Shown here piece by piece: positions 35,364 through 51,587 of a stretch of DNA of 64,000 nucleotides. The notes below the pieces were generated by a model. That model had not been told where the DNA came from and searched no databases. It worked only from the letters and a program-made list of their open reading frames with translations. This DNA is from Oceanicola sp. 502str15 (GTDB lineage: Bacteria; Pseudomonadota; Alphaproteobacteria; Rhodobacterales; Rhodobacteraceae). Each line of letters opens with the position of its first letter. Position 1 is the first letter of the stretch. The stretch covers positions 434,001 to 498,000 of the forward strand of contig NZ_WYDQ01000001.1 in the NCBI RefSeq assembly GCF_024105635.1, written 5' to 3'. Position numbers and translations under genes: made by a program.

Positions 35364-35865
35364 AGGACTCTGGCCGTTCTCGCTCCGCTTCTACGCCGAT
35401 GCCCCGGTGCAGGAGGCCTGCCTCGCCTTGCAGGACAGTCACGGCGGCGATGTGAACGTCGCCCTCTGCCTGCTCTGGCATGCGCGCGAGGGCAAGGTGC
35501 TGGGCCGGGCCGGGGCAGAGGCGCTTGAGGCATCGGTCGCCCCATGGCGCACCGAGGTCGTCGCCCTGCTGCGCGGTCTGCGCCGCAGGTTGAAGGGCTC
35601 CGACATGCTGGCCGACGCCGACGCGCTGGAAGCCTTCCGCAGCAAGGTGAAAGCAGTCGAACTCTCCGCCGAGAAGGTTGAGCAGACCCTGCTCGAAGCC
35701 GTGGCGGCCACGCCGGAGCGGCAGGCAGATATCGAAGAGGCCGGGCGCGCAAACCTCGCGGCCTACGGCGAAATCCTTGCCAGCCCGATTGCCCTCGAGA
35801 TCATCGATGCGCTCTGTGCCCGGCTGGTCCTAGTGGCGCGGCAGGCGAACGTGGACCAGCGCTGA
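35356..35865 (+). CDS. TIGR02444 family protein
   Basis: A 169-residue, mostly helical cytosolic protein of unknown function. Seen: 'GLWPFSLRFYADAPVQEACLALQDSHGGDVNVALCLLWHAREG', the recognisable opening of the TIGR02444 family, which is common in Proteobacteria. ATG 35356 overlaps the GntR stop by 8 bases. The last 36 bases overlap the convergent ThDP enzyme gene. Its link to this catabolic locus may be positional only. Confidence 0.8.
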   Translation: MPEGLWPFSLRFYADAPVQEACLALQDSHGGDVNVALCLLWHAREGKVLGRAGAEALEASVAPWRTEVVALLRGLRRRLKGSDMLADADALEAFRSKVKAVELSAEKVEQTLLEAVAATPERQADIEEAGRANLAAYGEILASPIALEIIDALCARLVLVARQANVDQR

Positions 35866-37581
35866 GTTCCCGCCGCGCACCGTGGCAATGGCCTCGTCGA
35901 ATGTCGCGCCCACGCTCTCCGGCTGGTCCATCGTCAGCCCCTTGAAGCCGAACATCTCGGCCATGGCCGCAAACCGCGTGTCATTCCTGAAATCCGAGGC
36001 AAAATCGCCCGAAGCATGGGAGGCCCCGTCGGGGTAGACGCGCAGGGTCGATTCCTTCACCGCCGACCATCCCGCATTGTCGAGCACCACCGTCAGCACC
36101 GGCAGCTCGTATTGCCGGGCAACGGCCAGCATCGAGGCCGGGCAGTTGTAGTAGAACGCCCCGTCGCCCACGATCTGCACCAGCATCCGCTCGGGCCGGG
36201 CCAGCTTGTAGCCCAGCGCCATCCCGCCCGACGCGCCCAGCCCGCCGCCAGCGGTGCGGGTCATCGTTCCCGGCACGGGGCGGGGGATCTGGCGCACCAT
36301 CACCGGCTGGTTGCGCACCGCTTCATGAAAGATCACGTCTTCCGGGTGCAGCCGCTCCCCGAGGGCCCGCAGCACGTGATGAGGGTTCAGCGCCCCGGGC
36401 TGCCCCGGGTCTTCGGCGGCCTCCCGGGCCGAGGCGCGCCGTGCGGCGCCGCCTTCGCGCAGCACCTCCACACGCGCGCCAGCCGCGGCGGCCTGTGCCT
36501 CGCTCCGGCGGGTCTCGATGATCTCGGCCAGCCGGGTGACGATCCGGGCGCTGTTGCCCTCCAGCCGAAGGTCCGCCGGAAAGCTCCAGATCGGCGAGCT
36601 GATCTTCAGCGCATCCACGTCGATATGCGCCCAGAAGGCCTCCGGGTCGGGCTGTCCCTGCGAGGGCAGCCAAGGCACGTCGCTGTCGACGATCAGCCCC
36701 ACATCCGCCGCCGGCAGCCGCTCGCCGGGCAGGCCGCCGGCAAAGCAGGCCATCTCGTGATTGACGTTGGACACCATCGCATTCTGTACAACCGCCGCCC
36801 CGACCAGCTCCGACAGCCGCTCGATCGCCTCCGAGGTGCCCGGCGTGTGGCCGCCGTAGGAGGTGACGATCAGCGGCCGCTCTGCGGCGAGGAGCCGATC
36901 GGCGAGGGTCTCAAGATCCGCATCCGGCACCGTGCCGGGGGTGAGAGCACCATGCTTGGTCGCCGGAAATCCGGGCAGGGCGGCCCCATCGGACTCCGCC
37001 ATCAGCGCTTCGCGCGGCAGCATCAGGTAGACCGGCCCGCGCGCGCCCGATTGCATCACCGTATGCGCCCGCCGCACGACCTCGCCCACATGCACCGGGC
37101 TTTGCAGGGTGTATTCCCACTTCACGTAGGGCCGCACGATGGCCCCCTGATCCTGCGGCTCCTGAATGAAGTGCACGTAGTTGTCGCGCGTGCCGGGCAG
37201 CTCCCCATGGCTGGTGTAAGGCGCCTTGCCCGCCATCAGCAGCACCGGAAGGCGCGAGCGGCAGGCGTTGTGCACCCCGGTCGCTGCATTGGTTGTGCCC
37301 ACGTCGACATGCACCAGAACCGCCTGACCGCGCCCGGTGGCAAAGGCGTAGCCCAGGGCCATGTGCATCGCGGTGTTCTCATGCGGACAGAGGATCACCT
37401 TGGGCGGCGTCCGCCCCTCCGCCTTCCAGCGGGCCAGCTCCTCGATGATCGGCGCATGATCCGTCCCGAGGTTGGCAAAGATGTAATCGACCTCGCAATC
37501 CACGAGCGCCTGCAACAGGTGATGCGCGGCGCTTCTGGCGTTGGTTTCCGCGGCGGCGAGGGGGGGCTGGGCAAGGGTCAT
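35830..37581 (-). CDS. Thiamine diphosphate-dependent enzyme, 2-oxo acid decarboxylase/carboligase-like
   Basis: A 583-residue ThDP enzyme. Seen: 'YIFANLGTDHAPIIEELARW', catalytic Glu68 in 'CPHENTAMHMALGYAFATG', and the cofactor motif 'IVGDGAFYYNCPASMLAVARQYELPV' ending in 'LDNAGWS'. It belongs to a different subgroup from the ThDP enzymes at 7395 and 32889. ATG 37581 overlaps the tctA stop by 4 bases; longer open sequence upstream in this frame is antisense to tctA reading and was rejected. It is the last gene of the 16-gene array and probably decarboxylates a 2-oxo acid made in that pathway. Confidence 0.83.
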   Translation of the reverse strand: MTLAQPPLAAAETNARSAAHHLLQALVDCEVDYIFANLGTDHAPIIEELARWKAEGRTPPKVILCPHENTAMHMALGYAFATGRGQAVLVHVDVGTTNAATGVHNACRSRLPVLLMAGKAPYTSHGELPGTRDNYVHFIQEPQDQGAIVRPYVKWEYTLQSPVHVGEVVRRAHTVMQSGARGPVYLMLPREALMAESDGAALPGFPATKHGALTPGTVPDADLETLADRLLAAERPLIVTSYGGHTPGTSEAIERLSELVGAAVVQNAMVSNVNHEMACFAGGLPGERLPAADVGLIVDSDVPWLPSQGQPDPEAFWAHIDVDALKISSPIWSFPADLRLEGNSARIVTRLAEIIETRRSEAQAAAAGARVEVLREGGAARRASAREAAEDPGQPGALNPHHVLRALGERLHPEDVIFHEAVRNQPVMVRQIPRPVPGTMTRTAGGGLGASGGMALGYKLARPERMLVQIVGDGAFYYNCPASMLAVARQYELPVLTVVLDNAGWSAVKESTLRVYPDGASHASGDFASDFRNDTRFAAMAEMFGFKGLTMDQPESVGATFDEAIATVRGGNSALVHVRLPRH

Positions 37582-39092
37582 TGGGCCAGATCCTCCTCGG
37601 TCTCGGTGCCTTTCTCCGCCTTGGCAGGCTTGAGCCAGACCCAGAGCAGCAGGCACATGAAGGCCAGCGTCACGGCGCTGATGGGCCGGGTCAGGAAAAT
37701 CGTCGCGTCCATCTGGTTGGCGGTCAGCGCGTTGCGCAGGTTCTGCTCCAGGATCGGCCCCAGCACGATGCCCAGCACCGCAGGCGCCGTCGGGATGCGG
37801 AAGCGCACCATCAGAAAGCCGAGCAGCCCGAAGATCACCACCAGCTTCAGGTAGAAGGGGTTGGACGCGAGCGAGAACGCCCCCGCCCCGGCCACCACGA
37901 GGATGCAGGGCACCATGATGCCATGAGGAATTTCCAGCACCTTCGCCGCCAGCCTGCGCCCGCCAATGCCCAGCACCAGCATCAGGACGTTGGAGATCAG
38001 CAGCAGCCAGAGGATGGAGTAGAACAGCTCGGTGTTCTGCGGAATGAAGAACGGCCCGGTCTCGAACCCCTGGATCATCAGCGCGCCCACCAGCACGGCG
38101 GTCACCGGGTCGCCCGGAATGCCGAGCGTCAGCAACGGCACCAGCGCCCCGCCGGTGACGGAGTTGTTGGCCACCTCGCAGGAGATCACCCCCTTCACTT
38201 CGCCTTCCCCGTACTTGTCGCCCGGCTTGGCGGTGCGCAGCGCGTCCGAGTAGCTGACCCAGGAGGCAATCGAGGGGCCGGTGCCCGGCAGCACACCGAT
38301 CAGCGAGCCGATGCAGGCGGATTTGAACATCAGCCACTTGTTGCGCACCATCGTCCCGAGGATCTCCGAGATCGGCGTTGTCGCCTGCACGGGCAGCACC
38401 TCGGAGTCGTCCTTCTTCCTGACCGTCAGCAGCATCATCTGGGCGATGGCGAAAAGGCCGATCAGAGCGGCGGTGGTCGGAATGCCGCCCATCAGGTTGG
38501 GCTGGCCGAACAGGAACCGGCCGACCCCCGACACCGGGTCGAGGCCCACGGTAGAGGCAAGAATGCCGATGAAGGCCGCCGCCATGCCCTTGACCATCGA
38601 GCCGCGCGAAATGCCGGCCACGCAGACAATCCCGACCAGCGCGAAGGTGAAGTATTCGACAGAGGTGAAACTGAGCGCCACGCGGGCGAGCGAGGGGGCG
38701 AGCAGGGCCAGCATGGTCAGCGAGAACAGCCCGCCGACGAAGGAGGAGAGCACCGCCGTCACGATCGCCTTGTCCCCCTGTCCCTGCTGGGCAAGGGCGT
38801 ATCCGTCCAGCGCCGTCGCCGCCGATCCCGGCGCGCCCGGCGTGTTGAGCAGGATCGCCGGGATCGAGCCGGCAAAGTAGCCCGAGCAATAGATCCCGAG
38901 CAGCAGCGCCATCGAGGTGGTCGGGCCCATCGCGTAGGTGACAGGCAGGAAGAGGACGATGGCGGAGGTCGCCGTCAGCCCGGGCGCAGCCCCGAAGACC
39001 ATGCCCACGACCGCGCCGAGCAGCAGGAAGAGCAGCACCAGCGGGTCGGCGATTGCGGCGGCACCCGCCGCGAGATGTGTGATCAGATCCAT
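37578..39092 (-). CDS. tctA: Tripartite tricarboxylate transporter permease TctA
   Basis: A 504-residue polytopic membrane protein, the large subunit of a TTT-family importer. Seen: 'GMVFGAAPGLTATSAIVLFLPVTYAM', 'IYCSGYFAGSIPAILLNTPGAPGSAATALDGY', 'GVLPGTGPSIASWVSYSDALR' and 'EVANNSVTGGALVPLLTLGIPGDP', the conserved TctA loops that carry the Gly-Pro signature repeats. ATG 39092 overlaps the tctB stop by 10 bases. With the TctC receptor it imports a tri- or dicarboxylate, in related clusters often an aromatic dicarboxylate. Confidence 0.93.
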   Translation of the reverse strand: MDLITHLAAGAAAIADPLVLLFLLLGAVVGMVFGAAPGLTATSAIVLFLPVTYAMGPTTSMALLLGIYCSGYFAGSIPAILLNTPGAPGSAATALDGYALAQQGQGDKAIVTAVLSSFVGGLFSLTMLALLAPSLARVALSFTSVEYFTFALVGIVCVAGISRGSMVKGMAAAFIGILASTVGLDPVSGVGRFLFGQPNLMGGIPTTAALIGLFAIAQMMLLTVRKKDDSEVLPVQATTPISEILGTMVRNKWLMFKSACIGSLIGVLPGTGPSIASWVSYSDALRTAKPGDKYGEGEVKGVISCEVANNSVTGGALVPLLTLGIPGDPVTAVLVGALMIQGFETGPFFIPQNTELFYSILWLLLISNVLMLVLGIGGRRLAAKVLEIPHGIMVPCILVVAGAGAFSLASNPFYLKLVVIFGLLGFLMVRFRIPTAPAVLGIVLGPILEQNLRNALTANQMDATIFLTRPISAVTLAFMCLLLWVWLKPAKAEKGTETEEDLAQ

Positions 39093-39523
39093 GTCGGCAG
39101 TACCATGCTGAAGCCACGGGTGAAGGCGTAGTAGAGGCCGAAGGCCAGTCCGAGCGGCAGGAAGATGAGAAGGGGGACCGAGCGGATCGAGAACATCCAC
39201 ATTGTCGCGAAAGCCAGCACCATCGCCCCGACGCGAAAGTCGATATAGGCGAAGAACCAGTAGAACAGGATCGTCAGCCCACCGACCACGGCCACCCGGC
39301 TGTCAACCAGCGTGGGCATTGGCCCGCTCTCAGCGCGCAACCCGCGCACCAGCAGGACCAGCCCGCAGATCAGAAGGCCGCCTGCACAGAGCAGCGGAAA
39401 GAAGTTGGGCGGCAGCGTGGCCCCTGTAGCACCCGTGCCCATGCCCAGCGACAACCAGGCGGCTGTGGTGCCAACGAAGGCGAGCGCAGCGCCGGCGACA
39501 GTGTCTTCGTGTTTTAGTGCCAT
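39083..39523 (-). CDS. tctB: Tripartite tricarboxylate transporter small subunit TctB
   Basis: A 146-residue membrane protein with four hydrophobic segments (about residues 10-30, 43-63, 78-98 and 105-135), the standard TctB topology. The motif 'LPPNFFPLLCAGGLLICGLVLL' is the conserved TctB helix start. It lies 82 bases after tctC with a strong hairpin in between, and overlaps tctA by 10 bases. Confidence 0.87.
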   Translation of the reverse strand: MALKHEDTVAGAALAFVGTTAAWLSLGMGTGATGATLPPNFFPLLCAGGLLICGLVLLVRGLRAESGPMPTLVDSRVAVVGGLTILFYWFFAYIDFRVGAMVLAFATMWMFSIRSVPLLIFLPLGLAFGLYYAFTRGFSMVLPTWI

Positions 39524-39556
39524 GATAACCTCATGCAGAACCGGGTGCCGGTGGGG

Positions 39557-39587
39557 TCTGCCCGCAGATCAGGCGTCTGCGGGCAGA
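39557..39587 (-). terminator. Intergenic RNA hairpin between tctC and tctB
   Basis: TCTGCCCGCAGA (39557-39568) and TCTGCGGGCAGA (39576-39587) make a perfect 12-bp stem with a 7-base loop. No T run follows on the minus strand. It likely protects the tctC message or lowers read-through into tctBA. Confidence 0.55.
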
Positions 39588-39605
39588 ACGGGGGCAGGGG
39601 CGGGC

Positions 39606-40583
39606 TTACTTCTCGGCCAGCCCGGCTTCTTCGAGGATCGGACGGAAGGCCTCGGCCTCTTCGTCGATCGCGGCCCGCATGTCCTGCGAGTTCAGGTAGG
39701 CGGGGTTGAAGTAGAACTGGTCCAGCCTCTCCTGAAAGCCCGGATCGGCCAGCGTCTCTTCGACCGCCGCGGAGATCTTGGTGATCGCCTCCTCGGGAAT
39801 GCCCTTGGGCGCAACCAGGCCAAACCACTGGGAGCGCAGGTAGTCGAAGCCCTGCTCGGTGTGGGTCGGCACATCGGGCAGGTACTTCCAGCGCTCCTCG
39901 GAGGCCAGGGCCAGCACCCGGATGTCGCTGTTGCCCTCATCGTCGATCATCGGCGGGTAGTTCGAACCGCCCCCCGAGAAAAAGTCGACCTCGCCCGAGA
40001 GCAGCTTGACCATGGCCTCGCCGCCGCTGTTGGAGTTCACGTAGGTCGCGCTCAGATCGTTCTGCGCAAGGAACACCGCCATGGCGAGATGCGGACCCGA
40101 GCCGATGCCGGACCCCGACCAGGTCAGGGTTTCACCCGCCTTCAGCGCGTCGACGAGGTCCCCGATCGTCTCGTAGGGGCTGTCCTTGGCCACCGCCATC
40201 CCCGAGGGGATCGAGACCATCCGCGCAATCGTGTCGAAGCTCTCGCCGGTATAGCCGGAGCTGTCCATGATCGGGCGCGCGGCGAGGGTGGAGTCCGAAC
40301 CCACGCCGATGGTGTAGCCATCCGGCCGCGCCAGCGCGAGGTTGGCCAGACCCACGGCACCACCGGCACCGGGCTGGTTCACGATCACGATCGGCTGGCC
40401 GAGCTTCTCCTCCAGCGCGGGCGCGAACATGCGGGCAAGCTGGTCGGTGGCGCCACCCTGCCCGAAGGGCACGACAAGCTGGATCGGCTTGGTGGGGTAG
40501 TCCTGCGCCACGGCAGGCGTGATCCCGGTCATCAACAGGGCCGCCGTTGCAGCGACGCCGGTCAGAAAGGTCTTCCGTTTCAT
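39606..40583 (-). CDS. tctC: Tripartite tricarboxylate transporter substrate-binding protein TctC (Bug family)
   Basis: Periplasmic receptor of 325 residues. Seen: signal peptide 'MKRKTFLTGVAATAALLM' ending 'TPAVAQ', 'YPTKPIQLVVPFGQGGATDQLAR', the Bug-family first strand and helix, 'IVIVNQPGAGGAVGLANLALARPDGYTIGV' and 'VPTHTEQGFDYLRSQWFGLVAPKGIP'. ATG 40583 follows GGAGGAGA. It is 120 bases downstream of the amidohydrolase-fold gene. Its ligand should be the substrate of the 16-gene pathway. Confidence 0.92.
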   Translation of the reverse strand: MKRKTFLTGVAATAALLMTGITPAVAQDYPTKPIQLVVPFGQGGATDQLARMFAPALEEKLGQPIVIVNQPGAGGAVGLANLALARPDGYTIGVGSDSTLAARPIMDSSGYTGESFDTIARMVSIPSGMAVAKDSPYETIGDLVDALKAGETLTWSGSGIGSGPHLAMAVFLAQNDLSATYVNSNSGGEAMVKLLSGEVDFFSGGGSNYPPMIDDEGNSDIRVLALASEERWKYLPDVPTHTEQGFDYLRSQWFGLVAPKGIPEEAITKISAAVEETLADPGFQERLDQFYFNPAYLNSQDMRAAIDEEAEAFRPILEEAGLAEK

Positions 40584-40703
40584 GTGTTCTCCTCCACATT
40601 CATGTTGCGTGGCCGGGGGCCGATGATGGCCTCCGGCGTCGGGTGCCCGCGTTGTCCGCGGTGCATTTCGCAGCCTCTCGAAAAGCGGAAACCGACCGCC
40701 CGA

Positions 40704-41945
40704 TCAGCTGCGATTTTTCTCGGCCTCCTTCTGCCGCCGGCGTTCCAGCTTCCAGTCGCTGAGCTTGTGCTCGAGGCCAAACAGCCTGGCGGCATTGCCA
40801 CCAAGAATGTCTCGCTTCGCGCTCTCATCGAGGAACGGCAGGTCGTAGATCACGCTGGGCAGGTCCATGTCCCAGTGCGGGTAATCGGACGAGTAGAGCA
40901 GCTGGCTCTCGGCCTTCATCATGTCGAAGGTCAGTTCCAGCGCGCGGGCGTTGTCCACCATCTCCATCGGCTGGGAGGTGTAGAACATGTCCTGCATGTA
41001 TTCCGACGGCTTCTTCTTCAGCAGCGGCGCATCGGAGTGGCGCATCATGTACTCGTTGTCGAGCCGCTGCATCATGAAGGGAATCCACGCCAGCCCGGCC
41101 TCGATCCACAGCACCTTCAGCTTGGGAAAGCGCTCGGGCAGGCCGTTGATGACCCAGTTCCCGAGGTGCAGCATGTTGTGCCACGCAAAGCCCAGCGCAT
41201 GCAGCGTCAGAAAGCGGTTGCAGGTCGAAAGCCCCGGCTCCTGCCCGCCCAGCCCGGTATGAAAGCCCAGCGGCAGCCCGCGCTCCTCCAGCATCCTGTA
41301 GGTGCGGGTATAGGCGTTGTCGTAAACCCCCTTGTAGCGCGTCGTCGTGACCATGAAGCCGATGACACCGGGATGATCGCCGAACTCCTCGATGATCTTC
41401 GGGCAGGCTTCCGGGTCGTTGAACGGCAGGTAGAGCATCGACTTGAGCCGGCTGTCCTCGCTCAGCACCCGCTCGCAAAGCCAGCGGTTGTAGGCGAACG
41501 CCAGCTCCACCTCGAGGTCGACGCGCGGGCTGAGGCCGAGGTTCAGCAGCGGGGTGGGGAACATGCAGGCAATGTCCACACCCATCGAGTCCATCCAGCG
41601 ACGCATCAGCGTCACGTCGCGGTGCGGCTTCTCCGGCACCGCCTCGCCCTTGCGCTCGGGGTAGCGCACCAGCCGTCCGCCGAGGTCCTGGTATTGGCCG
41701 AACCCGGTCGAGATGCCCTTGCGCGAGATCCCCTGATACTTGATTTCATTGCGCAGAACGTCGTTGGCGACGTATTCGGCAATCTCGGCGCTGGCCTCGT
41801 TCTCGTAGTGGTGGCTGTCCACATCGACGATCAGGAAGTCGTCGTAGTTGCGCGCCTCCGCCTGCTGTCGGGCATGGGCAAGGTGGGTGCGGGTGTCGAA
41901 GGGCTCGCTCGTCAGGTCGCGCTGCCCGGTGATCTGCCTGTTCAT
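40704..41945 (-). CDS. Amidohydrolase-2-fold protein with DSHHYE site, possible metal oxygenase component
   Basis: A 413-residue protein of the amidohydrolase 2 fold. Seen: 'IVDVDSHHYEN' at 39-49, where the classical H-x-H metal motif is replaced by D43-S-H45-H46-Y-E48; 'LPLGFHTGLGG'; 'LKVLWIEAGLAWIPFMMQRLDNEYM'; and 'LLYSSDYPHWDMDLPS' with the late Asp. Relatives with D-S-H-x-x-E are mostly uncharacterised; PtmU3 of platensimycin synthesis is a diiron hydroxylase with an amidohydrolase fold. Here the gene is coupled to a 116-residue protein and a dedicated Rieske ferredoxin, which points to a redox reaction rather than plain hydrolysis (inference). ATG 41945 follows GAGGAGG. Confidence 0.75.
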   Translation of the reverse strand: MNRQITGQRDLTSEPFDTRTHLAHARQQAEARNYDDFLIVDVDSHHYENEASAEIAEYVANDVLRNEIKYQGISRKGISTGFGQYQDLGGRLVRYPERKGEAVPEKPHRDVTLMRRWMDSMGVDIACMFPTPLLNLGLSPRVDLEVELAFAYNRWLCERVLSEDSRLKSMLYLPFNDPEACPKIIEEFGDHPGVIGFMVTTTRYKGVYDNAYTRTYRMLEERGLPLGFHTGLGGQEPGLSTCNRFLTLHALGFAWHNMLHLGNWVINGLPERFPKLKVLWIEAGLAWIPFMMQRLDNEYMMRHSDAPLLKKKPSEYMQDMFYTSQPMEMVDNARALELTFDMMKAESQLLYSSDYPHWDMDLPSVIYDLPFLDESAKRDILGGNAARLFGLEHKLSDWKLERRRQKEAEKNRS

Positions 41946-42292
41946 GCCACGGCCTCCTCGGGAAGATCGGCCAGCGATGTCGCGCGGGCCGGGCGGATGT
42001 TGGTCATCTGCTCCCACAGACCCAGCTCGAAAATCTCCATCCGGCCCGCGTCCAGCATTGCAAGCGAGGCAATGGCGATCTCGGTCGGCGTGACGGCAGT
42101 GTTGCGCCCGAAGGGCATGAGCTTGGCGCCGGTTTCCGCCTTGGCGACATAGAGCCGGGTCAGCGCGGCGAGGGCCTGTCCGAGTGCGTCGTTGTCGAGC
42201 GCCTCAAGGGTGCCATCGGCCACGGCGTCATCCACGAGCGCGGCGATCTCGCTGGCGGCGGTGGAGAAGCGGTCAGAGGGTGAGGAAGACAT
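41942..42292 (-). CDS. Hypothetical 116-residue protein between Rieske ferredoxin and amidohydrolase-fold gene
   Basis: I do not recognise this protein. It is mostly helical: 'AASEIAALVDDAVADGTLEALDNDALGQALAALTRLYVAKAE' forms one long amphipathic segment, followed by 'VTPTEIAIASLAMLDAGRMEIFELGLWEQM'. There are no cysteines, no signal peptide and no membrane helix. It overlaps the Rieske ferredoxin gene by 20 bases and the amidohydrolase-fold gene by 4, so all three are made together; a small auxiliary or coupling subunit of that complex is a reasonable guess. Confidence 0.75.
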   Translation of the reverse strand: MSSSPSDRFSTAASEIAALVDDAVADGTLEALDNDALGQALAALTRLYVAKAETGAKLMPFGRNTAVTPTEIAIASLAMLDAGRMEIFELGLWEQMTNIRPARATSLADLPEEAVA

Positions 42293-42638: not shown

Positions 42639-42695
42639 TGGCAGTTTCCTTTCATGACGTGAGGGAGGAATGGCTGGGCGAGGGGCGGCCCTGCG

Positions 42696-44348: not shown

Positions 44349-44947
44349 TTCACGTCTCCCTCAGAGGGTTTGCCCGGTTGGCCCTGCCAGCGCCTGACAG
44401 TGCCGGCGTCGATGCCCAGCAGGTCGAGCGCGCGGCCGGCAAGGTGGTCGATCATCTCCATCACGCTGGCGGGCTTGTAGTAGAGGCCCACCACCGCGGG
44501 CATGACGATGGCCCCCGAGGCCGTCACATCGGCCATGGCGCGGATATGGCCCGCGTGCAGCGGCGTCTCGCGGAACATCAGCACCACCCGGCGCCGCTCC
44601 TTGAGGCAGACGTCGGCAGCGCGCGAAATCAGGTCGTCGGTCAGGCAGGAGGCCAGGGCCCCCATCGTCTTCACCGAGCAGGGCGCGATGATCATGCCTT
44701 CCGCCTTGAAGGAGCCACTGGCGATGGAGGCGCCGATATCCTTGAAGCTGTGCACCACATCGGCCAGCCCCTGCACCTGCTCGGCGGTGTAGTCGGTCTC
44801 GATCAGCATGGTGCGGGTCGCGGCCGGAGACATGACCAGATGGGTCTCGACCTCCTCCACCGGGCGCAGCAGCTCCAGCATCCGGATGCCCAGCAGGGTG
44901 CCCGAGGCGCCGGTGATCCCGATGATGACGCGCTTTTTCTCAGCCAT
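44345..44947 (-). CDS. ubiX: UbiX family flavin prenyltransferase
   Basis: A 200-residue flavoprotein that makes prenylated FMN for UbiD. Seen: 'KRVIIGITGASGTLLGIRMLELL' for FMN/phosphate binding, 'SGSFKAEGMIIAPCSVKTMGALASC' and 'RRRVVLMFRETPLHAGHI', all signature UbiX/Pad1 segments. The frame is open to 45019; ATG 44947 was chosen, overlapping the upstream hydrolase stop. Linkage to its own UbiD suggests a dedicated cofactor supply. Confidence 0.92.
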   Translation of the reverse strand: MAEKKRVIIGITGASGTLLGIRMLELLRPVEEVETHLVMSPAATRTMLIETDYTAEQVQGLADVVHSFKDIGASIASGSFKAEGMIIAPCSVKTMGALASCLTDDLISRAADVCLKERRRVVLMFRETPLHAGHIRAMADVTASGAIVMPAVVGLYYKPASVMEMIDHLAGRALDLLGIDAGTVRRWQGQPGKPSEGDVK

Positions 44948-45743
44948 CGGCGGCCTCGATCCCGGCCACAAAGCCTTCGAGCGCAGCGGCAAAGCCTTCG
45001 GCATCTTCGATCGCCGCAATATGCGCGGTGTCGAGCACCACCATCTCGCCCCTCTGCGCGGTCGCCATCAGCTCCTCGCTGCGCGCCACCGGGGCCGACA
45101 GGTCGTGCCGTCCGGCAATCGCCAGGGTGGGGCCGGGGTATCCGGCAAGGGCGGCGGTGGTATCTCCGGTTTCAAGCGCGTGGCAGGCGGCGGCGTAGCC
45201 TTCGGGCGGCATCGCCTCCAGCATGGCGCGCACGTCCCCGGTGGCCTCCGGGTTCGCCTCGCGCCACTGCGCGCCCAGCCAGCGTTCCAACGTGGGTTGC
45301 ACCAGCCCCGGCCAACCGTCGGCCCGCGTTGCGGCGGCCCGGTCCTGCCAGAGGCTGGGCGGTGGAAAGCTGGTTGCGGTATTGGCCAGCACCAGCCCGG
45401 CCACCCTCTCGGGCGCAAGCTCCGCCGCCTTCATCGCCGTCAGCCCGCCGAGCGACAGGCCACAGAGCACGGCGCGCTCCAGCCCGGTCGCCGCCATGAC
45501 GTCCAGCGCATCCTGTGCAAACCCCGCCACGGTCATCTGGCCGGGTGTCACCTCCGATTGGCCATGCCCGCGCGGGTCATAGGCCACGTTCAGGCGGCTC
45601 ATCCGGGCGCGCACCGCCTCCCACATCCGGTGATCCGCAGCCACGGAATTGATGAACAGCACGGGCAGCCCACCAGCCCCGCGCAGTGACACATGCAGCG
45701 CATGGCCCCCCGCGGTCTCGATTGTTCTGGTCTGGTCGTGCAT
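44940..45743 (-). CDS. Alpha/beta fold hydrolase, 3-oxoadipate enol-lactonase-like
   Basis: A 267-residue alpha/beta hydrolase. Seen: 'VLFINSVAADHRMWEAV' near residue 28, 'YDPRGHGQSE', nucleophile Ser in 'CGLSLGGLTAMKAAELAPERVAG' near residue 95, Asp in 'AGRHDLSAP' near residue 210 and His in 'TAHIAAIE' near residue 240. The NSV..D.RMW and GLSLGG pattern is typical of PcaD-like lactonases and N-formylmaleamate deformylase-like enzymes. A hydrolytic step after ring hydroxylation and opening is likely. ATG 45743 follows GGGGAGGA. Confidence 0.83.
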   Translation of the reverse strand: MHDQTRTIETAGGHALHVSLRGAGGLPVLFINSVAADHRMWEAVRARMSRLNVAYDPRGHGQSEVTPGQMTVAGFAQDALDVMAATGLERAVLCGLSLGGLTAMKAAELAPERVAGLVLANTATSFPPPSLWQDRAAATRADGWPGLVQPTLERWLGAQWREANPEATGDVRAMLEAMPPEGYAAACHALETGDTTAALAGYPGPTLAIAGRHDLSAPVARSEELMATAQRGEMVVLDTAHIAAIEDAEGFAAALEGFVAGIEAADG

Positions 45744-45778
45744 CGCTGTCCTCCCCTTCAGCGGTTTGCGGTCTTGCC

Positions 45779-46240
45779 CTACGCGGTCGCGTTCACGTCC
45801 TCGTAGTGCTTTCGCAAAGCCTTGAAGAATTGCTTGGTCAGGTGCTTGGCAACCGAGCCCAGCACCCGCTGGCCAACCCCGGCCACCAGCCCTCCGATCT
45901 CGCCCGAGCCCTCGTAGTCGAGCTGGGTGGTCTCGGGGCCCGTCTCGGTGAGGGTGAACTTGGCGCGGCCCTCGCCGGTGCCGAGCGATCCGCCGCCGGA
46001 GACGGTGATGTGGCAGGTGGTGGGCGCGTCCTTGTCGAACAGCTTCACCTTGCCGTCGAAGGTGCCGCCGACCGCAGCCACCTTGAGCTGCATCTTCACG
46101 TCATACGCATCCGGCCCGGTCTCGGTCATCTCCTTGCAGCCCGGAATGCACTTGGTCAGCACATCGGGGTCTTGCAGGCCTTCCCAGAGCTGCAGGCGCG
46201 AGGCGGCGATCTCCTCGCTGCCCGAAAGATCCATCTTCAT
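45779..46240 (-). CDS. CoxG-like SRPBCC family protein
   Basis: A 153-residue SRPBCC-fold protein (CoxG, PF06240). Seen: 'DLSGSEEIAASRLQLWEGLQDPDVLTKCIPGCKEM' then 'TFDGKVKLFDK', 'LDYEGSGEIGGLVAGVGQRVLGSVAKHLTKQFF'. CoxG proteins accompany molybdenum hydroxylases of the CO dehydrogenase family and help attach or deliver them at the membrane. Here it is two genes downstream of the Mo hydroxylase subunits, which fits. It overlaps the upstream amidohydrolase stop by 4 bases. Confidence 0.88.
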   Translation of the reverse strand: MKMDLSGSEEIAASRLQLWEGLQDPDVLTKCIPGCKEMTETGPDAYDVKMQLKVAAVGGTFDGKVKLFDKDAPTTCHITVSGGGSLGTGEGRAKFTLTETGPETTQLDYEGSGEIGGLVAGVGQRVLGSVAKHLTKQFFKALRKHYEDVNATA

Positions 46241-47223
46241 GCGGTTTCTCCCATCAGTTTCAGGGCCAGCCCGCTCTCGATGCTGGCGCGGTCGGCGGGT
46301 GAAAGCTCGATCTTGTCGAGAATGGCGCGCGGCACCGGGTCGCCGATCGGAAAGGGCATGTCCGAGCCCAGCATGATCCGGTCGGCACCAACGGTGTCGA
46401 TCAGCAGCTGCAGCGCCGCGGGCTCGTGCACCAGGGTGTCGTAGTAGAGCATCGACATGGCCTTCACCGGGTCGGCCATGTCCTCGGGGTGCAGCGCGTG
46501 GTTGTGGCGCAGGCGCCCGATCACATAGGGCAGGGCGGCGCCGCCGATCCCGATGACGATCTTGGCGCCGGAATACTTCTCGACATGGCCGGAATAGATG
46601 ATCCGGGTCACCGCAATCAGGCTGTCGGTGATGCGGCCGAGCGCGTTGGGCATCCCGAAGTCGCGCACCCGCGCGTCGCCGGCGTCGAACACCGGGTGGA
46701 TCGCAACGATGCTGCCCAGCTCATGCGCGGCCTCCCAGAAGGGGGTCATCTCCGGGGCGTCCAGTTCGGCCCCGCCATTGTCGGGCTGGGTCCCGATCAT
46801 GGTGCCCGACATGCCCGCGCCATGGGCCTCGCGCAGCACCTCGGCGGCCAGCGTTCCGCTCTGGGTCGGCACCACGGCAAGCCCCGAGAAGCGGCCGCCA
46901 TTGTCCTTTTCGGCCGCCAGCATGTGCGCGTTGATGGTCCGCGCCCAGGCCGCGCCCTCCTCGGCGGGAAGGTCATTGCCGAACATGTCGAGCCACCCGG
47001 CAACGACCTGGCGGTCGATCCCGTTCTCGTCCATCCAGGCAAGCCGCTTGGCAATGTTGGTCAGCCCCGGCGACACCGGGCGCGTGGCCTTCTTTCCGGC
47101 AAAGGAAAAGCTCAGGCTGCCATCCTTCGGCGTCATCTCGACGCTGGGAAATTCGCTCTTCCGGTCCTGCAGCTCTTCCAGCAGGGCAGGGGGCACAAGG
47201 TGGGCGTGGGCGTCAATGATCAC
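46237..47223 (-). CDS. ACMSD-like amidohydrolase 2 family protein, decarboxylase-type fold
   Basis: A 328-residue metal-dependent enzyme. Seen: H6-x-H8 in 'IIDAHAHLVPP', 'RPVSPGLTNIAKRLAWMDENGIDRQVV' and 'GADRIMLGSDMPFPIGDP' with the late Asp, all in the order found in 2-amino-3-carboxymuconate-semialdehyde decarboxylase (ACMSD) and gamma-resorcylate-type decarboxylases; the third His is in 'IVAIHPVF'. The active-site His of ACMSD ('GHGGG', H228) is Ile226 here ('VIGIGGA'). So it may be a hydrolase, hydratase or an altered decarboxylase. The start is GTG at 47223, 3 bases after the large Mo subunit stop. Confidence 0.83.
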   Translation of the reverse strand: MIIDAHAHLVPPALLEELQDRKSEFPSVEMTPKDGSLSFSFAGKKATRPVSPGLTNIAKRLAWMDENGIDRQVVAGWLDMFGNDLPAEEGAAWARTINAHMLAAEKDNGGRFSGLAVVPTQSGTLAAEVLREAHGAGMSGTMIGTQPDNGGAELDAPEMTPFWEAAHELGSIVAIHPVFDAGDARVRDFGMPNALGRITDSLIAVTRIIYSGHVEKYSGAKIVIGIGGAALPYVIGRLRHNHALHPEDMADPVKAMSMLYYDTLVHEPAALQLLIDTVGADRIMLGSDMPFPIGDPVPRAILDKIELSPADRASIESGLALKLMGETA

Positions 47224-47226
47224 GGG

Positions 47227-49611
47227 TCAGTCTTTCTTTTCTGCGGCGGCGATCGCGTCACTGATCGCGCTCATGCGGATGGGCAATTTGTTCAGGTGAA
47301 GGCCCCATGGGCTGAGGGCATCGTGGATCGCGCCCGAAATCGCCGCCGGAGCGCCGAGGTAGCCGGACTCGCCCGAGCCCTTCTGGCCAAACTCGGTGAG
47401 CGGCGAGGGGGTGCAATGGTGCACGATCTCCACCTCGGGCACCTCGTGGGACGAGGGCATGAGGTAGTCGAGGAAGCTCTGGGTCATCAGCTGGCCCTCG
47501 CCGTCATAGGCGAACTCTTCGAGCAGGGCCGCGCCGATCCCGTGGGCAATGCCCCCGAGCGTCATGCCCTTCACGATATGCGGGTTGATGACCACGCCGC
47601 AGTCATGCCCCATCACGTAACGGCGCAGCTCGGGCTTCGCGAGCACCGGGTCGAAGACCATGAGCACGAGGTGGAACTCGAAGGAGTAGCAGGGATACAT
47701 CTGCACCTTGTCGTCCTTCGGCAGCGCCGTGCCGGTGGGCACTTGCTGGATGAAGGAAGCGGTGAGGCCCGGGTTGGTGCCCTCGGGCAGATCGTGAAAC
47801 CGCCGATGGGCAACATCCACGATCTCGTCCCAGCCAATCGTCCGCCCGTCGGGCGCGTGCACCGTGCCCTGCGCATAGCTCAGCGTGTCCGCCGGCGCAT
47901 CGAGCAGTTTCGCCGCGATTGCAATGGCTTGCGTCTTGATCTGCCGCGCCGCATTGGCCGCCGCCCCGCCGAGCATGATCGCCATGCGCGAGCCGACCGG
48001 CGAGTTGCCGGGCAGCGAGCCAAGCGAGTCCGGGCGCACCACACGAATGCTGTCGGGGTCCATCTCCAGCACCTCGCCCACCACGGTGGCGGCCAGCGTC
48101 TCATGGCCCTGCCCCGAGGAGGTGGTGTGGATCGACACCGTCACATCGCCCAGCGCATCCACGTTCACCCGGCTGCCCTCCATCCAGGTGGAAGTGCGGT
48201 TCTTCGGGTTCAGCAGCGGCTCGAAGGAGGAGTTGCCCCCCGACGGCTCGAGGCAGGCGGCAATGCCGATGCCCGCACAAAGCCCCTCGGCGCGCAGCTT
48301 GTCGCGCTCGGCAACAAGGGCGTCATAGCCGACATGGGCCATCACCTTGTCGATCACCGCGTGATAGTCGCCGGAGTCGTATTTGCTGCCCGACGGGATC
48401 TCGTAAGGGAACTGGTCGGCGCGGATCAGGTTCTTGCGGCGAAATTCGATGCGATCCATGCCCAGATGCGCCGCGACCCGGTCCATCATCGTCTCGATGG
48501 CGTAGTTGGTCGGCGACTGGCCGAAGCCGCGCACCGCCTCCTGCACCGTCTTGTTGGTGGTGACCGACATTGCCCGGTATTGCACCGACTTGATCTGATA
48601 GGGCCCCACGATGGCGCTGATCGGCTTGCCAAGCTGGAACGGCGCCCGCCCCGCGTAGCCCCCGGCATTGTCGAGCGCGCGCATCTTCATCGCGTTCACC
48701 CGGCCATCCTTGTTGAAGGCCACCTCGATGTCGAAAATCCGCTCCGGCCCATGCGCATCCCCGGCCCGCATGTTCTCCAGACGGTCCTCGATCAGCCGCA
48801 CCGGGCGCGAGAGCTTGCGGGCGAGGTAGCCGGCCAGCACCGTGTGCTTGATGCCGCGCTTCACGCCGTAAGAGCCGCCCACGTCCACATCGTAATGCAC
48901 CCGCACATCATTGCCGCGCAGGTTCATCGCGCGGGCGATCTGGTCGGCGTATTTGGGCATCTGGATCGAGGCCCAGACGTCGAGCACATTCTCCCAGGCG
49001 TTCCACTCGGCAATCACCCCGAAGGTCTCGATCGGCACGGTCGAATTGCGGCCCCATGTGACGCGCAGCTTGAGGGTCTCGTCGCTGGCGGCAAAATCGT
49101 CGTCCACCGGGCCCCAGTCGAAGGTGCGGTCAAGCAGCAGGTTGGAGCCGTGATCGGGGTGGACCGGGGCCGACGTCTCCTTCAGCGCCTCCTCGGCGTC
49201 GATCACGTAGGGCAGGGGCTCCACCTCCACGCGCACCTTCTCGGCGGCGTCCTCGGCCACGGCCCGGCTCTCGGCGACAACGGCGGCAATCCACTCGCCC
49301 GCATAGCGGTTCTGCCCCACGGCGAGCGGGTAGCGGCGCACATTCGGCGTGTCGAGCCCGTTCATGAGCTGGTTGGTCGCGCCCGCCAGCTCGGCCCCGT
49401 CGACCACGTCGACGACGCCGGGCATCGCAAGCGCCTCGGAAGCGTCGATCTTCAGGATCTTCGCAGAGGGGTGCTGCGCGGCAACCAGCGCCACATGGAG
49501 CATTCCGGGGCGCTCGATATCCTGCACGAACCTGCCGTTGCCGACCACGAAGCGCCTGTCCTCGCGCACGCGGCGGCTGGACGAGATGAAGCGGTTTGCG
49601 GGGGTGTTCAT
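47227..49611 (-). CDS. Molybdenum hydroxylase large subunit (xanthine dehydrogenase/CoxL family)
   Basis: The 794-residue molybdopterin-binding subunit of a three-subunit aldehyde oxidase/xanthine dehydrogenase family enzyme, which hydroxylates carbon with water-derived oxygen. Seen: N-terminal 'RRVREDRRFVVGNGRFVQDI', 'VGGSYGVKRG', 'QEAVRGFGQSPTNYAIE', 'SSGQGHETLAATVVGEVL' and the catalytic Glu in 'KGSGESGYLGAPAAISGAI'. The CO dehydrogenase active-site signature AYRCSFR is absent, so it is not form I CoxL. ATG 49611 overlaps the small subunit stop by 4 bases. Aromatic N-heterocycles or aldehydes are the usual substrates. Confidence 0.9.
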   Translation of the reverse strand: MNTPANRFISSSRRVREDRRFVVGNGRFVQDIERPGMLHVALVAAQHPSAKILKIDASEALAMPGVVDVVDGAELAGATNQLMNGLDTPNVRRYPLAVGQNRYAGEWIAAVVAESRAVAEDAAEKVRVEVEPLPYVIDAEEALKETSAPVHPDHGSNLLLDRTFDWGPVDDDFAASDETLKLRVTWGRNSTVPIETFGVIAEWNAWENVLDVWASIQMPKYADQIARAMNLRGNDVRVHYDVDVGGSYGVKRGIKHTVLAGYLARKLSRPVRLIEDRLENMRAGDAHGPERIFDIEVAFNKDGRVNAMKMRALDNAGGYAGRAPFQLGKPISAIVGPYQIKSVQYRAMSVTTNKTVQEAVRGFGQSPTNYAIETMMDRVAAHLGMDRIEFRRKNLIRADQFPYEIPSGSKYDSGDYHAVIDKVMAHVGYDALVAERDKLRAEGLCAGIGIAACLEPSGGNSSFEPLLNPKNRTSTWMEGSRVNVDALGDVTVSIHTTSSGQGHETLAATVVGEVLEMDPDSIRVVRPDSLGSLPGNSPVGSRMAIMLGGAAANAARQIKTQAIAIAAKLLDAPADTLSYAQGTVHAPDGRTIGWDEIVDVAHRRFHDLPEGTNPGLTASFIQQVPTGTALPKDDKVQMYPCYSFEFHLVLMVFDPVLAKPELRRYVMGHDCGVVINPHIVKGMTLGGIAHGIGAALLEEFAYDGEGQLMTQSFLDYLMPSSHEVPEVEIVHHCTPSPLTEFGQKGSGESGYLGAPAAISGAIHDALSPWGLHLNKLPIRMSAISDAIAAAEKKD

Positions 49612-50120
49612 CGGCTCGCCTCCGGCACGGCTGCAATGTTGCTTTCGCGCAGGCGCTTGGCGGCCAGCCGGATCGCCTCGATGATCTGGCCGTAGCCGGT
49701 GCAGCGGCAGATATTGCCCGAGATCGCCTCGCGGATGTCCTCGTCGGTCGGGTCGGCCTCGCGGGCCAGCAGCGACTTGGCCGCCAGCACCATGCCGGGC
49801 GTGCAGTAGCCGCACTGCAACCCGTGGGTCTCGCAGAAGCTGTCCTGGATGATGTCCATCTCGCCCTCGGTCGGGGCGGAGCTTTCGATGGTCGAAATCT
49901 CCATGCCCTCGCATTGCACGGCGAACATCAGGCACGAGCGCACGGCATCGCCGTCCACCAGCACGGTGCAGGCCCCGCAGACGCCATGCTCGCAGCCCGC
50001 GTGGGTGCCCTTCAGGTTCAACTCGTCGCGCAGGGTGTCGAGCAGCGTCATGCGCGGCTCGACAGTGACACTGCGCAGCTCGCCGTTCACCTTCAGGTCG
50101 GTTTTCATCGGGCGGGTCAT
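49608..50120 (-). CDS. Molybdenum hydroxylase small subunit, 2x[2Fe-2S]
   Basis: The 170-residue iron-sulfur subunit. Seen: plant-type cluster 'GCEHGVCGACTVLVDGDAVRSCL' (C-x4-C-x2-C-x11-C) and the second cluster 'CGYCTPGMVL' with 'GNICRCTGY', the complete eight-Cys set. It passes electrons from the Mo site to FAD. Order medium-small-large matches coxMSL. A second in-frame ATG five codons in is possible. Confidence 0.93.
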   Translation of the reverse strand: MTRPMKTDLKVNGELRSVTVEPRMTLLDTLRDELNLKGTHAGCEHGVCGACTVLVDGDAVRSCLMFAVQCEGMEISTIESSAPTEGEMDIIQDSFCETHGLQCGYCTPGMVLAAKSLLAREADPTDEDIREAISGNICRCTGYGQIIEAIRLAAKRLRESNIAAVPEASR

Positions 50121-50989
50121 GCGGCGGCTCCAATGGCTTGGTCGCGGGCCTGCACCATCGCCTGCTCTGCAAGGCGGGCGGCGGCGCGGCGGCGGTAGGT
50201 TGATGTGGCGTGCAGGTCGTCCACGCAGTCCAGATCGGCCAGCGCGGCCTCGACGGCACCGGCAATGTCCTTGCCCGTCAGGCGGCTGCCCGCGAGGCCG
50301 GCAACGTCCACCGCCACCGGCACATCGCCGACACTGCCGATGCCCAGCCGGGCCTCGGTGCAGGTGCCGTCTTCCGCCAGCACGATCTGTGCGCCCGCCG
50401 AGGCAAAGGCATAGTCGCTGCGCCGCGACGCGATCTCGCGAAAGCCGACCCCCAGCGCGCCCTCGGGGCGCTTGGGAAAGAGCACCCGGGTGAGCAGCCC
50501 GCCCATCGGCGCCATTGTCACGGTCGGGCCGATGAAGAACTCCTCGGGCGAGAAGGTCTCCATCTCGTCCTCGGTCCTGAATTCGATCTGCGCCTCGAGG
50601 ATTGTCGCAGCCAGCGCGATCTCGGCGGAGGGGTCGCCATGGGCGATCGAGCCTCCGATCGTGCCGCGCGCCCGGGTCGGCGGGTGGCCGACATGGGGCA
50701 GGGCGGCCGCCAGCAGGGGCACCTGCTGCGCGATGAGCGGGTTGGTCAGCGCCTCCGCCTGCCGCACGGCCGAGCCGATAGCGACATGCGCGCCGCTGTC
50801 GTCGATACCGCGCAGCTCGGACAGCCGGGCAATGTCGACCAGCTGCGAGGGCCGCGACAGGCGCATCGCCAGCATCGGCACCAGCGTCTGGCCTCCGGCG
50901 ATCACGCGCGCCTCCATGTCACTGGCCATGGCCTCGCAGGCTTCGGCCAGTGTGGACGGGCGATAGTATGAGAACGGAGCAGCTTTCAC
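50117..50989 (-). CDS. Molybdenum hydroxylase medium subunit, FAD-binding
   Basis: The roughly 290-residue FAD subunit. Seen: N-terminal 'FSYYRPSTLAEACEAMAS', FAD pyrophosphate loop 'VIAGGQTLVPMLAMRLSRPSQLVDI', second FAD loop 'RARGTIGGSIAHGDPSAEI' and a CODH flavoprotein C-terminal domain. I chose GTG at 50989 ('MKAAPFSYY'); a TTG at 50998 three codons earlier is also possible. Next gene overlaps by 4 bases. It is 29 bases downstream of the NIPSNAP gene. Confidence 0.9.
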   Translation of the reverse strand: MKAAPFSYYRPSTLAEACEAMASDMEARVIAGGQTLVPMLAMRLSRPSQLVDIARLSELRGIDDSGAHVAIGSAVRQAEALTNPLIAQQVPLLAAALPHVGHPPTRARGTIGGSIAHGDPSAEIALAATILEAQIEFRTEDEMETFSPEEFFIGPTVTMAPMGGLLTRVLFPKRPEGALGVGFREIASRRSDYAFASAGAQIVLAEDGTCTEARLGIGSVGDVPVAVDVAGLAGSRLTGKDIAGAVEAALADLDCVDDLHATSTYRRRAAARLAEQAMVQARDQAIGAAA

Positions 50990-51018
50990 GGCGGTCAACA
51001 GTCCTTGCTAAACGGCAC

Positions 51019-51339
51019 TCAGGTGAGCGGAAGGTCGGGCATCACGGGCAGCAGCACCGACTTGTGCTGCTTCGCGATCAGGGGGCCGTCGGTCTCCGAG
51101 GCCGCCTTGGCCGCCAGCCACCCGGCATCGCTGCCGAACGAGCCCCACGCCTTTTCCCGTGCCTCGGCATCGGGAAAGCGGGTGAGGTAGTTCAGCATCC
51201 CGGTGGCTTCGTCGGTGAAGGCCCCCAGCAGCTCGATTCCGTGGTCCGGAAAGCGTGTCGCCACTTCCTTTTCGAAGCGCTCGCGCACCTGATCGGCGCA
51301 CCCTTCAACATGTTCGTAGATACGAAGTTCATACAGCAC
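51019..51339 (-). CDS. NIPSNAP family protein
   Basis: A 106-residue protein of the dimeric alpha/beta barrel type. Seen: 'LYELRIYEHVEGCADQVRERF' and 'GIELLGAFTDEATGMLNYLTRFPDAEAREKAWGSFGSDAGW', the standard NIPSNAP sequence ('YELRxY', 'YLxxFxD...R...W..F..D..W'). Function in bacteria is unknown; members recur in catabolic clusters. No ATG fits; GTG 51339 follows GGGGAGGAG. It is the first gene of the 16-gene array and is divergent from the MocR regulator. Confidence 0.83.
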   Translation of the reverse strand: MLYELRIYEHVEGCADQVRERFEKEVATRFPDHGIELLGAFTDEATGMLNYLTRFPDAEAREKAWGSFGSDAGWLAAKAASETDGPLIAKQHKSVLLPVMPDLPLT

Positions 51340-51457
51340 GCGGCTGGCTCCTCCCCAGGAATTGTCATCGTGTTCGTTGCGGAGGGTAGGGGGACAATTC
51401 GGCGCGGTCAATCGAAAGATACACAAAAGGTGGGATAATTTGCCCTATTGGGGTGCT

Positions 51458-51489
51458 GCAATGCAGTAATATTCCTCGCCGCATTGCAA
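51458..51489. promoter_or_regulatory. Inverted repeat upstream of the MocR gene
   Basis: TGCAATGC (51458-51465) and GCATTGCA (51482-51489) are exact reverse complements, 16 bases apart, in the 248-bp divergent region. Candidate operator for control of the minus-strand array or of MocR itself. Confidence 0.4.
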
Positions 51490-51557: not shown

Positions 51558-51587
51558 CTATTTCTTGGCCAACACAAGAGGACTGTT

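Follow-up and report, generated by a model that had tools for sequence, protein, structure and literature searches.

Amidohydrolase-related dinuclear oxygenases (AROs) are recently recognized non-haem oxygenases, some of which contain Mn/Fe, and excerpts of two reports describe hundreds of predicted members with few known substrates (PMC10401708, PMC10811679). The described systems, AibH1H2/AibG/AibF of Rhodococcus wratislaviensis and SfbO, comprise a PF04909 protein with six metal ligands and a small Rieske ferredoxin encoded in the same gene run. The same features occur in a 16-gene array of Oceanicola sp. 502str15, located in a stretch of 64,000 nucleotides (contig NZ_WYDQ01000001.1, positions 434,001 to 498,000) that is referred to as the window and whose numbering is used throughout. 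Unlike the described systems, the array encodes a single candidate oxygenase chain (AH2) with a 116-residue protein (p116) in place of the AibH1 partner, has no adjoining reductase, and places these genes in a catabolic context together with a molybdenum (Mo) hydroxylase and a UbiD-family decarboxylase. The array is probably an undescribed catabolic cluster, of which the Rieske–p116–AH2 part is probably a variant of the ARO systems. An earlier, sequence-only reading of the window knew of no named pathway with this exact gene set, and no matching paper was found in the open-licence PMC literature.

Parts of the gene set are shared with other pathways. The furan-2,5-dicarboxylate (hmf) pathway, as we take its gene set to be, has UbiD, UbiX, and a Mo hydroxylase in common with the array, which differs in the absence of a CoA ligase, in the Ser of UbiD at the position aligned with the specificity His of HmfF, and in its extra ARO and thiamine-diphosphate (ThDP) enzymes. 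The picolinate (pic) and nicotinate (nic) pathways are alike in an amidohydrolase-family protein and in a dehydrogenase-type first hydroxylation, which is presumably of the Mo type, whereas the array contains UbiD/UbiX and lacks the dihydroxypyridine dioxygenase and maleate isomerase families. The lum pathway of Nocardioides simplex also employs a ThDP enzyme, a xanthine-oxidase-type enzyme, and a Rieske protein, but the ThDP type, the oxygenase, and the remaining set are different. Clusters on Neorhizobium and Sinorhizobium plasmids (L157, L159) resemble the array in UbiD (56%), UbiX, Mo subunits, CoxG, ThDP, Tct, and GntR genes, but they contain two large Mo subunits and gave no match for AH1 or the ARO module. 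This related cluster type (UbiD approximately 56–57%, two Mo large subunits, ThDP, Tct, GntR, and mostly UbiX) was seen in L024–L027, L157, and L159, namely in the window's family and on Sinorhizobium/Neorhizobium plasmids.

Gene content and integrity of the array

The array consists of 16 intact open reading frames (ORFs), all on the minus strand at 35830–51339 (15,510 bases), exactly the one-strand, 15.5-kb array of 16 genes that the sequence-only reading had outlined. Nine of the 15 junctions are overlaps (4, 4, 4, 8, 4, 20, 4, 10, and 4 bases) and six are gaps (20, 3, 35, 57, 120, and 82 bases), where the lengths rest on the start codons that we chose; the overlaps of 4–20 bases ascribed earlier to most junctions are thus right in size, and their proportion is corrected to 9/15. 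Pfam assigned 15 of the 16 genes to the families previously named, and only the 116-residue protein matched no family above cut-off. The first gene encodes a NIPSNAP-family protein (106 aa, 51019–51339; PF07978, E 5.6e-15), followed by the FAD subunit (MoM, 293 aa, 50117–50998; PF00941, PF03450), 2Fe-2S subunit (MoS, 170 aa, 49608–50120; PF01799, PF00111), and large subunit (MoL, 794 aa, 47227–49611; PF02738, PF20256, PF01315) of the Mo hydroxylase. Then come an ACMSD-like amidohydrolase (AH1, 328 aa, 46237–47223; PF04909), CoxG (153 aa, 45779–46240; PF06240, E 1.2e-26), an alpha/beta hydrolase resembling the 3-oxoadipate enol-lactonase PcaD (ABH, 267 aa, 44940–45743; PF00561), the UbiX flavin prenyltransferase (200 aa, 44345–44947; NF004685, a UbiX-type flavoprotein also in Pfam), and the UbiD-family decarboxylase (550 aa, 42696–44348; PF01977). 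The Rieske ferredoxin (121 aa, 42273–42638; PF00355), p116 (41942–42292), and AH2 (413 aa, 40704–41945; PF04909) precede TctC, a solute receptor (39606–40583; PF03401), TctB (39083–39523; PF07331), TctA (37578–39092; PF01970), and the ThDP enzyme ThDP1 (583 aa, 35830–37581; NF006203 (PRK08327) equivalog). UbiD gave a single match in the 4.44-Mb host genome.

Several of these proteins were examined individually. MoL residues Q217 and E748 are invariant in 33 aligned rows, and its nearest PDB chains are quinoline 2-oxidoreductase (1t3q) and CoxL (8uem), which are tied. UbiX scored 248.4 bits against NF004685, above the cut-off of 188, and is hence assigned as a flavin prenyltransferase; ABH scored 205.1 bits against TIGR02427 (PcaD), below the cut-off of 255.85, so that it is not assigned as a PcaD enol-lactonase. 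UbiD by itself was discarded as a basis for naming the pathway: relatives of 63–65% identity are found alongside genes for acyl-CoA dehydrogenase and CoA ligase. ThDP1 scored 608.9 bits against NF006203 (cut-off 456), and its nearest PDB entries are BbmA and benzoylformate decarboxylase. According to Pfam, none of the 16 genes belongs to the ferredoxin reductase, classical ring-cleavage dioxygenase, CoA ligase, or enoyl-hydratase families; the 2,5-dihydroxypyridine dioxygenase and maleate isomerase families are also absent from these 16 genes, the rest of the genome not having been searched.

A consensus scan over 35000–53200 gave 6 terminator-like sites, against a shuffle mean of 8.2, and 3 promoter-like sites, against a shuffle mean of 1.9 (standard deviation 1.2), so that neither is in clear excess. 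Such values near the shuffle level give no sign that the array is split, yet they do not prove a single transcript. The genes also recur together elsewhere, as described below, which contradicts the possibility that they never co-occur.

The candidate oxygenase AH2 and the linked protein p116

The five best PDB matches of AH2 were 8sm7, 8sm9, 6m1w, 8sm6, and 8sm8 (E 1e-40 to 3e-26), 6m1w being AibH2, and the best outside the AROs was 5-carboxyvanillate decarboxylase (4icm, E 9e-15), with ACMSD at E 8e-10. Excerpts of PMC10811679 identify 8SM6 as SfbO and 8SM7–8SM9 as other AROs, which were discovered through their Rieske neighbors. The metal ligands of AibH2, given in part of PMC7782822 as D25, H27, H211, E265, D337, and H340, correspond to D43, H45, H229, E282, D354, and H357 of AH2. 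All six are invariant in 40/40 aligned rows, namely that of the window and those of 39 relatives hand-picked from 120 listed. In a more distant set used for an ARO tree they are complete in 44/46 rows, the exceptions L048 and L176 being incomplete at one end; L131, the gene of a tree-set exception seen in another alignment, has Thr in the D354 column. A small Rieske gene lies in the same run, as in the described AROs, and the Rieske, p116, and AH2 genes overlap. AH2 is hence a probable ARO-type oxygenase, with a predicted dinuclear Fe2 or Mn/Fe cofactor that would support O2-dependent C–H hydroxylation. The possible O2-dependent, Rieske-fed step in the sequence-only reading gains support from these ligands and PDB matches and becomes probable, with AH2, the second amidohydrolase-fold protein of that reading, as its probable source.

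The other amidohydrolase-fold protein, AH1, appears to be of a different kind. Its residues H6, H8, H176, and D288, which we take to correspond to the ACMSD metal ligands HxH, H, and D, are invariant in 32 rows, and the ACMSD set is thereby complete. The position that we assume to hold the catalytic His of ACMSD is I226 in AH1. The alignment splits cleanly there: 14/32 rows, all of at least 51% identity and including the window, have GIGG, and the remaining 18 have (S/C/A)HGG, that is, a His at the ACMSD catalytic position. AH1 is thus ACMSD-like in its predicted mononuclear ligand set, as it had been called, though not in its catalytic His. Since AH2 has the ARO ligands, and AH1 has mononuclear ligands without the catalytic-His residue, the two proteins are predicted to do different things.

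The gene for p116 shares 20 bases with the Rieske gene and 4 bases with the AH2 gene. In the Rieske ferredoxin, 37 residues separate the C-x-H half from the C-x2-H half, a long spacing shared with 15 aligned ARO-linked relatives. A single-sequence search with p116 found 24 proteins, its own cluster counted, and a 16-row profile found 910 clustered relatives; p116 is hence not an orphan. No Pfam or NCBIfam model was above cut-off for any of the 16 rows, and DUF2336 matched 1/16 below cut-off (E 0.0037). Among 289 genomes of the class, ARO (E <= 1e-60) and p116 (E <= 0.001) were both detected in the same 11 genomes, including that of the window. A Rieske gene lies within 1.5 kb of p116 in 16/16 places and an ARO gene in 15/16, the sixteenth having its ARO approximately 6 kb away. 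Conversely, p116 was present within the 1.5-kb flank in 18 of 23 ARO places and absent from it in L115, L122, L128, L130, and L132. In the tree set, which contains near-copies and for which some rows were retrieved by way of p116, p116 lies within 1.5 kb of ARO in 37/43 alphaproteobacterial rows, and in two of the six others the distance is 3.8 and 5.8 kb. A single gain of this linkage on the ARO tree is not supported, as 6 changes are needed, at least 5 of which are forced by well-supported branches.

Alphaproteobacterial plasmids present the same arrangement. In 6/6 of the annotated plasmids examined (27 had a match), a hypothetical protein is located between the Rieske and amidohydrolase genes, and p116 was detected by profile in a seventh, unannotated record. 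By contrast, p116 was absent by profile from 3/3 haloarchaeal records examined (4 records matched), where ARO is followed directly by Rieske. Among 299 genomes of the phylum, p116 was found in 3, every one in the window's class, and it was absent from four genomes of the same genus among the matches listed. The running text of excerpts of PMC10811679, PMC10401708, and PMC7782822 mentions no p116-like protein. A predicted model of p116 comprises four helices (pLDDT 80, pTM 0.60) without a clear match to solved structures, which does not by itself show a new fold. This linkage and gene overlap suggest that p116 may be a subunit or coupling protein of the oxygenase. More tentatively, and with the balance leaning somewhat against it, p116 could mark a large branch of alphaproteobacterial AROs with three components, as an all-helical coupling or electron-transfer subunit that is required between the Rieske protein and the dinuclear oxygenase, comparable to the effector proteins of four-helix-bundle diiron monooxygenases. 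Such an oxygenase would here feed a previously undescribed CoA-free route that combines O2 attack on a side chain, ThDP- and prenylated flavin (prFMN)-dependent decarboxylation, and ring hydroxylation with water-derived oxygen. As a separate observation, the clusters L163, L165, and L174 each combine two ARO genes with one p116 gene and one Rieske gene, which recalls the AibH1/AibH2 pair; at least 5 ThDP genes lie within approximately 20 kb of the ARO genes around L163 and L165 (G794:C2 and G689:C22).

Conservation of the array and the proposed pathway

A UbiD search with one genome per species found 109 relatives, and the best 80 of these 109 gave the loci counted here. Detected near UbiD were MoL (35 loci), AH1 (33, both together in 30), CoxG and UbiX (12 each), NIPSNAP, ABH, and each Tct gene (8 each), AH2 (7), Rieske and p116 (6 each), and ThDP1 (5). 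More than 6 kb was available on both sides of UbiD in 35/80 loci, and 21 of these 35 contained MoL. Searching for the same gene order in other genomes had been suggested as a check, and four of the 80 loci contain all 16 genes in the identical order: an Oricola metagenome-assembled genome (MAG; L028), Rhodobacterales HKCCE2091 (L029), Roseitranquillus sediminis (L030), and Arsenicitalea aurantiaca (L044), where MAG labels are those of the records. This recurrence in four other genomes argues that the array is more than a chance assembly. The four belong to the 12 loci with UbiD of at least 78% identity. Four others of the 12 (L032, L033, L034, and L046) keep the core without Rieske, p116, AH2, and ThDP1, with Tct kept in L033 and L034. 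L031 has the order CoxG-UbiX-UbiD-Rieske-p116-AH2-Tct-ThDP1 with no Mo genes within reach, L036 has its Mo genes downstream of Tct with AH1, CoxG, ABH, and UbiX not within reach, and L035 and L037 contain UbiD (84%) and no other array gene at the thresholds used. In the window's family, UbiD of at least 85% identity occurs in 3/295 genomes, including that of the window, and of 56–57% in 4 more. The array is hence modular, with a widespread core of MoM-S-L, AH1, and UbiD, and a Rieske–p116–AH2–ThDP1 part that comes and goes; such a patchy distribution would fit horizontal spread. Judging by the record labels, the genomes that contain relatives of the core include those of cultured alphaproteobacteria as well as MAGs of marine, soil, and groundwater origin.

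The module of Rieske, p116, and ARO genes is located between UbiD and TctC in 6/6 close-clade loci that contain an ARO (L028, L029, L030, L031, L036, and L044). Farther away, ARO, p116, MoM, MoS, MoL, AH1, and UbiD share a locus in a Rhodospirillales MAG (L048), whose ARO belongs to the sister clade of the window's ARO clade, and p116 and Rieske lie beside MoM-S-L, AH1, and UbiD in L069. The one-strand order Rieske-p116-ARO-MoM-MoS-MoL-AH1 occurs in L167, and the ARO module adjoins NIPSNAP, MoM, MoS, and MocR in L178, the AROs of both belonging to another clade than that of the window. Such repeated pairing with Mo genes favors one pathway over accident. Within the close clade, 5/6 loci with an ARO contain ThDP1, against 0/4 core loci without one (Fisher P 0.048), a count that excludes L035 and L037. 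PF02776 gave 179 matches in 13 genomes, from which 1.7–1.9 ARO clusters are expected within 10 kb of a ThDP gene; at least 6/24 were found (nominal P 0.006–0.009), or at least 5/23 without the window (P 0.02–0.03), where clusters were counted by eye in coordinate tables and 6 is a lower bound. The module likewise has ThDP genes nearby on plasmids of Neorhizobium petrolearium and Sinorhizobium terangae, which are outside these 24 clusters. An aldehyde dehydrogenase gene directly follows ThDP1 in L031 and L044. On plasmids of Phaeobacter, Thioclava, and Salipiger, where the clusters are close copies, an alpha-hydroxy acid oxidase gene lies approximately 6 kb from the module.

We propose, and give an even chance to, the reading that the array is a conserved, operon-like unit of catabolism by which an acid-bearing aromatic or N-heteroaromatic compound is taken up and broken down oxidatively. 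Tct, perhaps together with a nearby ABC system, would import the acid. The Rieske protein, p116, and AH2 would form an O2-activating dinuclear (Fe2 or Mn/Fe) hydroxylase acting on a C–H target, probably in a side chain, which would be oxidized to a 2-oxo acid. ThDP1, which resembles benzoylformate decarboxylase, would convert this acid into an aldehyde, and an aldehyde dehydrogenase would convert the aldehyde into a ring carboxylate. UbiD, with prFMN from UbiX, would then strip the ring carboxylate, MoM-S-L would introduce water-derived oxygen on the ring, with CoxG perhaps serving maturation, and the PcaD-like ABH and AH1 would hydrolyze the resulting lactone or lactam. The genes, the ligand residues, and their conservation and linkage are observed, and the substrate class, the step order, the side-chain shortening, and p116 as an oxygenase component are the parts that we infer. 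Gene families support the combination of Tct uptake, Mo hydroxylation, and UbiX/UbiD decarboxylation in one catabolic array, as first suggested from sequence. The term "complete" used in the sequence-only reading has to be dropped, since ferredoxin reductase and ring-cleavage dioxygenase are missing, outside neighbors co-travel, and only 4/12 of the closest loci contain all 16 genes. The partners of the core in other lineages also vary, with an FAD monooxygenase, isochorismatase, and amidase in L069, an FAD monooxygenase and alpha/beta hydrolase in L048, and a VOC-domain protein and FAA hydrolase in L047, which points to aromatic or N-heteroaromatic rings generally and to none by name.

A number of observations weigh against this proposal. 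Electron supply to the Rieske protein, alcohol oxidation, and entry to central metabolism have no gene in the array, and the absence of a ferredoxin reductase and of an alpha-hydroxy acid dehydrogenase from it leaves gaps in the chain. MoL is missing from 45/80 UbiD loci, partly on short contigs, and also from 14/35 with long flanks, which indicates that UbiD relatives work elsewhere too. No Rieske match in L048 and no ARO in L069 were found in the fetched stretches. As for the ThDP linkage, the close-clade count is made without L035 and L037, 18/24 ARO clusters have no ThDP gene within 10 kb among the matches listed, and the P values are optimistic because the clusters are not independent (G948 contributes two, and G794 and G689, which are of one family, another two). 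ThDP genes are packed in G794 and G689 anyway, and catabolic genes cluster regardless. Alternatively, the array could hold two adjacent pathways under shared regulation, one being the core (MoMSL, AH1, CoxG, ABH, UbiX, and UbiD), which would serve one acid, and the other a separate Rieske-p116-ARO-Tct-ThDP1 unit, which would serve another. The core indeed stands without Rieske, p116, AH2, and ThDP1 in L032, L033, L034, L046, and many deeper loci, and the ARO module lacks UbiD or Mo matches in most class-survey and plasmid loci. However, the module is found beside Mo genes again in L048, L167, and L178, and its place between UbiD and TctC is kept in each of the six close-clade loci with an ARO, so that we regard two pathways as unlikely, though deserving serious weight.

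The pathways previously thought nearest fare differently. For a picolinate/nicotinate-type pyridine route, AH1 would be a PicC-like decarboxylase, and the isochorismatase and alpha/beta hydrolase would cleave amides late. An excerpt of PMC10142695 describes PicC as an amidohydrolase-family protein, L069 has an isochorismatase and amidase after MoMSL-AH1-UbiD, L048 has an alpha/beta hydrolase, and an isochorismatase gene lies at 53096–53782 (plus strand) of the window. Nevertheless, the ACMSD catalytic His is lost from AH1 of the window's clade, the 16 genes lack the two pyridine-pathway families named above, and no isochorismatase matched in the 1.1–8 kb examined beyond MocR in 8 other loci with MocR. 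Pyridine acids thus stay among the candidates, but at quite a low probability. The ideas that PicB is an ARO and that HpoB of 2-hydroxypyridine degradation may resemble one were set aside. A CoA-free furan (di)carboxylate route, in which UbiD takes one carboxyl, the Mo enzyme yields an enol-lactone, and ABH leads to 2-oxoglutarate, would suit the enol-lactonase-like ABH and the nearest solved structure of UbiD, which is HmfF (6h6x, E 2.7e-35). One His of HmfF has been tied to furan specificity, according to part of PMC7976604. The aligned pair in UbiD is S327/S328, both invariant in 81 rows, in a register that is tentative with a two-residue gap nearby; furan dicarboxylate is weakened by this Ser. 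The absence of CoA ligase and enoyl-hydratase families and the unexplained ARO and ThDP enzymes also count against furans, making them very doubtful. A quinoxaline or lumichrome-like route, in which the ThDP enzyme decarboxylates the heteroaromatic acid directly before a xanthine-oxidase-type enzyme hydroxylates the ring, would match the sequence published for lumichrome (PMC12746152), with decarboxylation by a ThDP enzyme, Mo hydroxylation, and a step that depends on a Rieske protein, but it is highly improbable, and lumichrome catabolism was set aside on gene content, as none of the lum families given there (small LumK/LumL of 20 and 23 kDa, P450, alpha/beta Rieske dioxygenase, and catechol dioxygenase) is in the array.

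Neighboring genes and significance

Some genes outside the array co-travel with it in some genomes. A GntR/FCD regulator (34656–35363, plus strand; domain match) was found in 6/80 UbiD loci, the second ThDP enzyme ThDP2, which adjoins the array (32823–34643, plus strand; domain match), in 5/80, and an aldehyde dehydrogenase beside ThDP2 (31375–32805, minus strand; PF00171), a possible partner of the ThDP enzymes, in 3/80. An NMT1-type ABC transporter (27620–29448, minus strand) has its permease in 8/80 and its receptor in 7/80, and UbiD lies near a related transporter in L033, L034, L047, L053, L054, L055, L060, and L076. On the other side, the divergent MocR-type regulator noted earlier is present (51453–52961, plus strand), with GntR and aminotransferase domains; its nearest model is the ectoine regulator EhuR (NF052286, 409.4 bits, under the cut-off of 480). 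The isochorismatase gene after MocR is followed by a PF01979 amidohydrolase gene (region 53096–58905), and the ORFs after the latter (to 58905) read like a TRAP transporter by eye rather than by library scan. A 213-bp BKC-1-like stretch is flagged at the start of the Thioclava plasmid record (L155).

The linked small third component p116 would offer a handle on electron supply in AROs and a better genomic marker for them. Its linkage is also a reason to ask whether ARO reconstitutions without p116 are incomplete. Furthermore, the array provides a concrete metabolic setting, composed of a Mo hydroxylase, UbiD, a ThDP enzyme, and Tct, in which the substrate of one ARO may be found.

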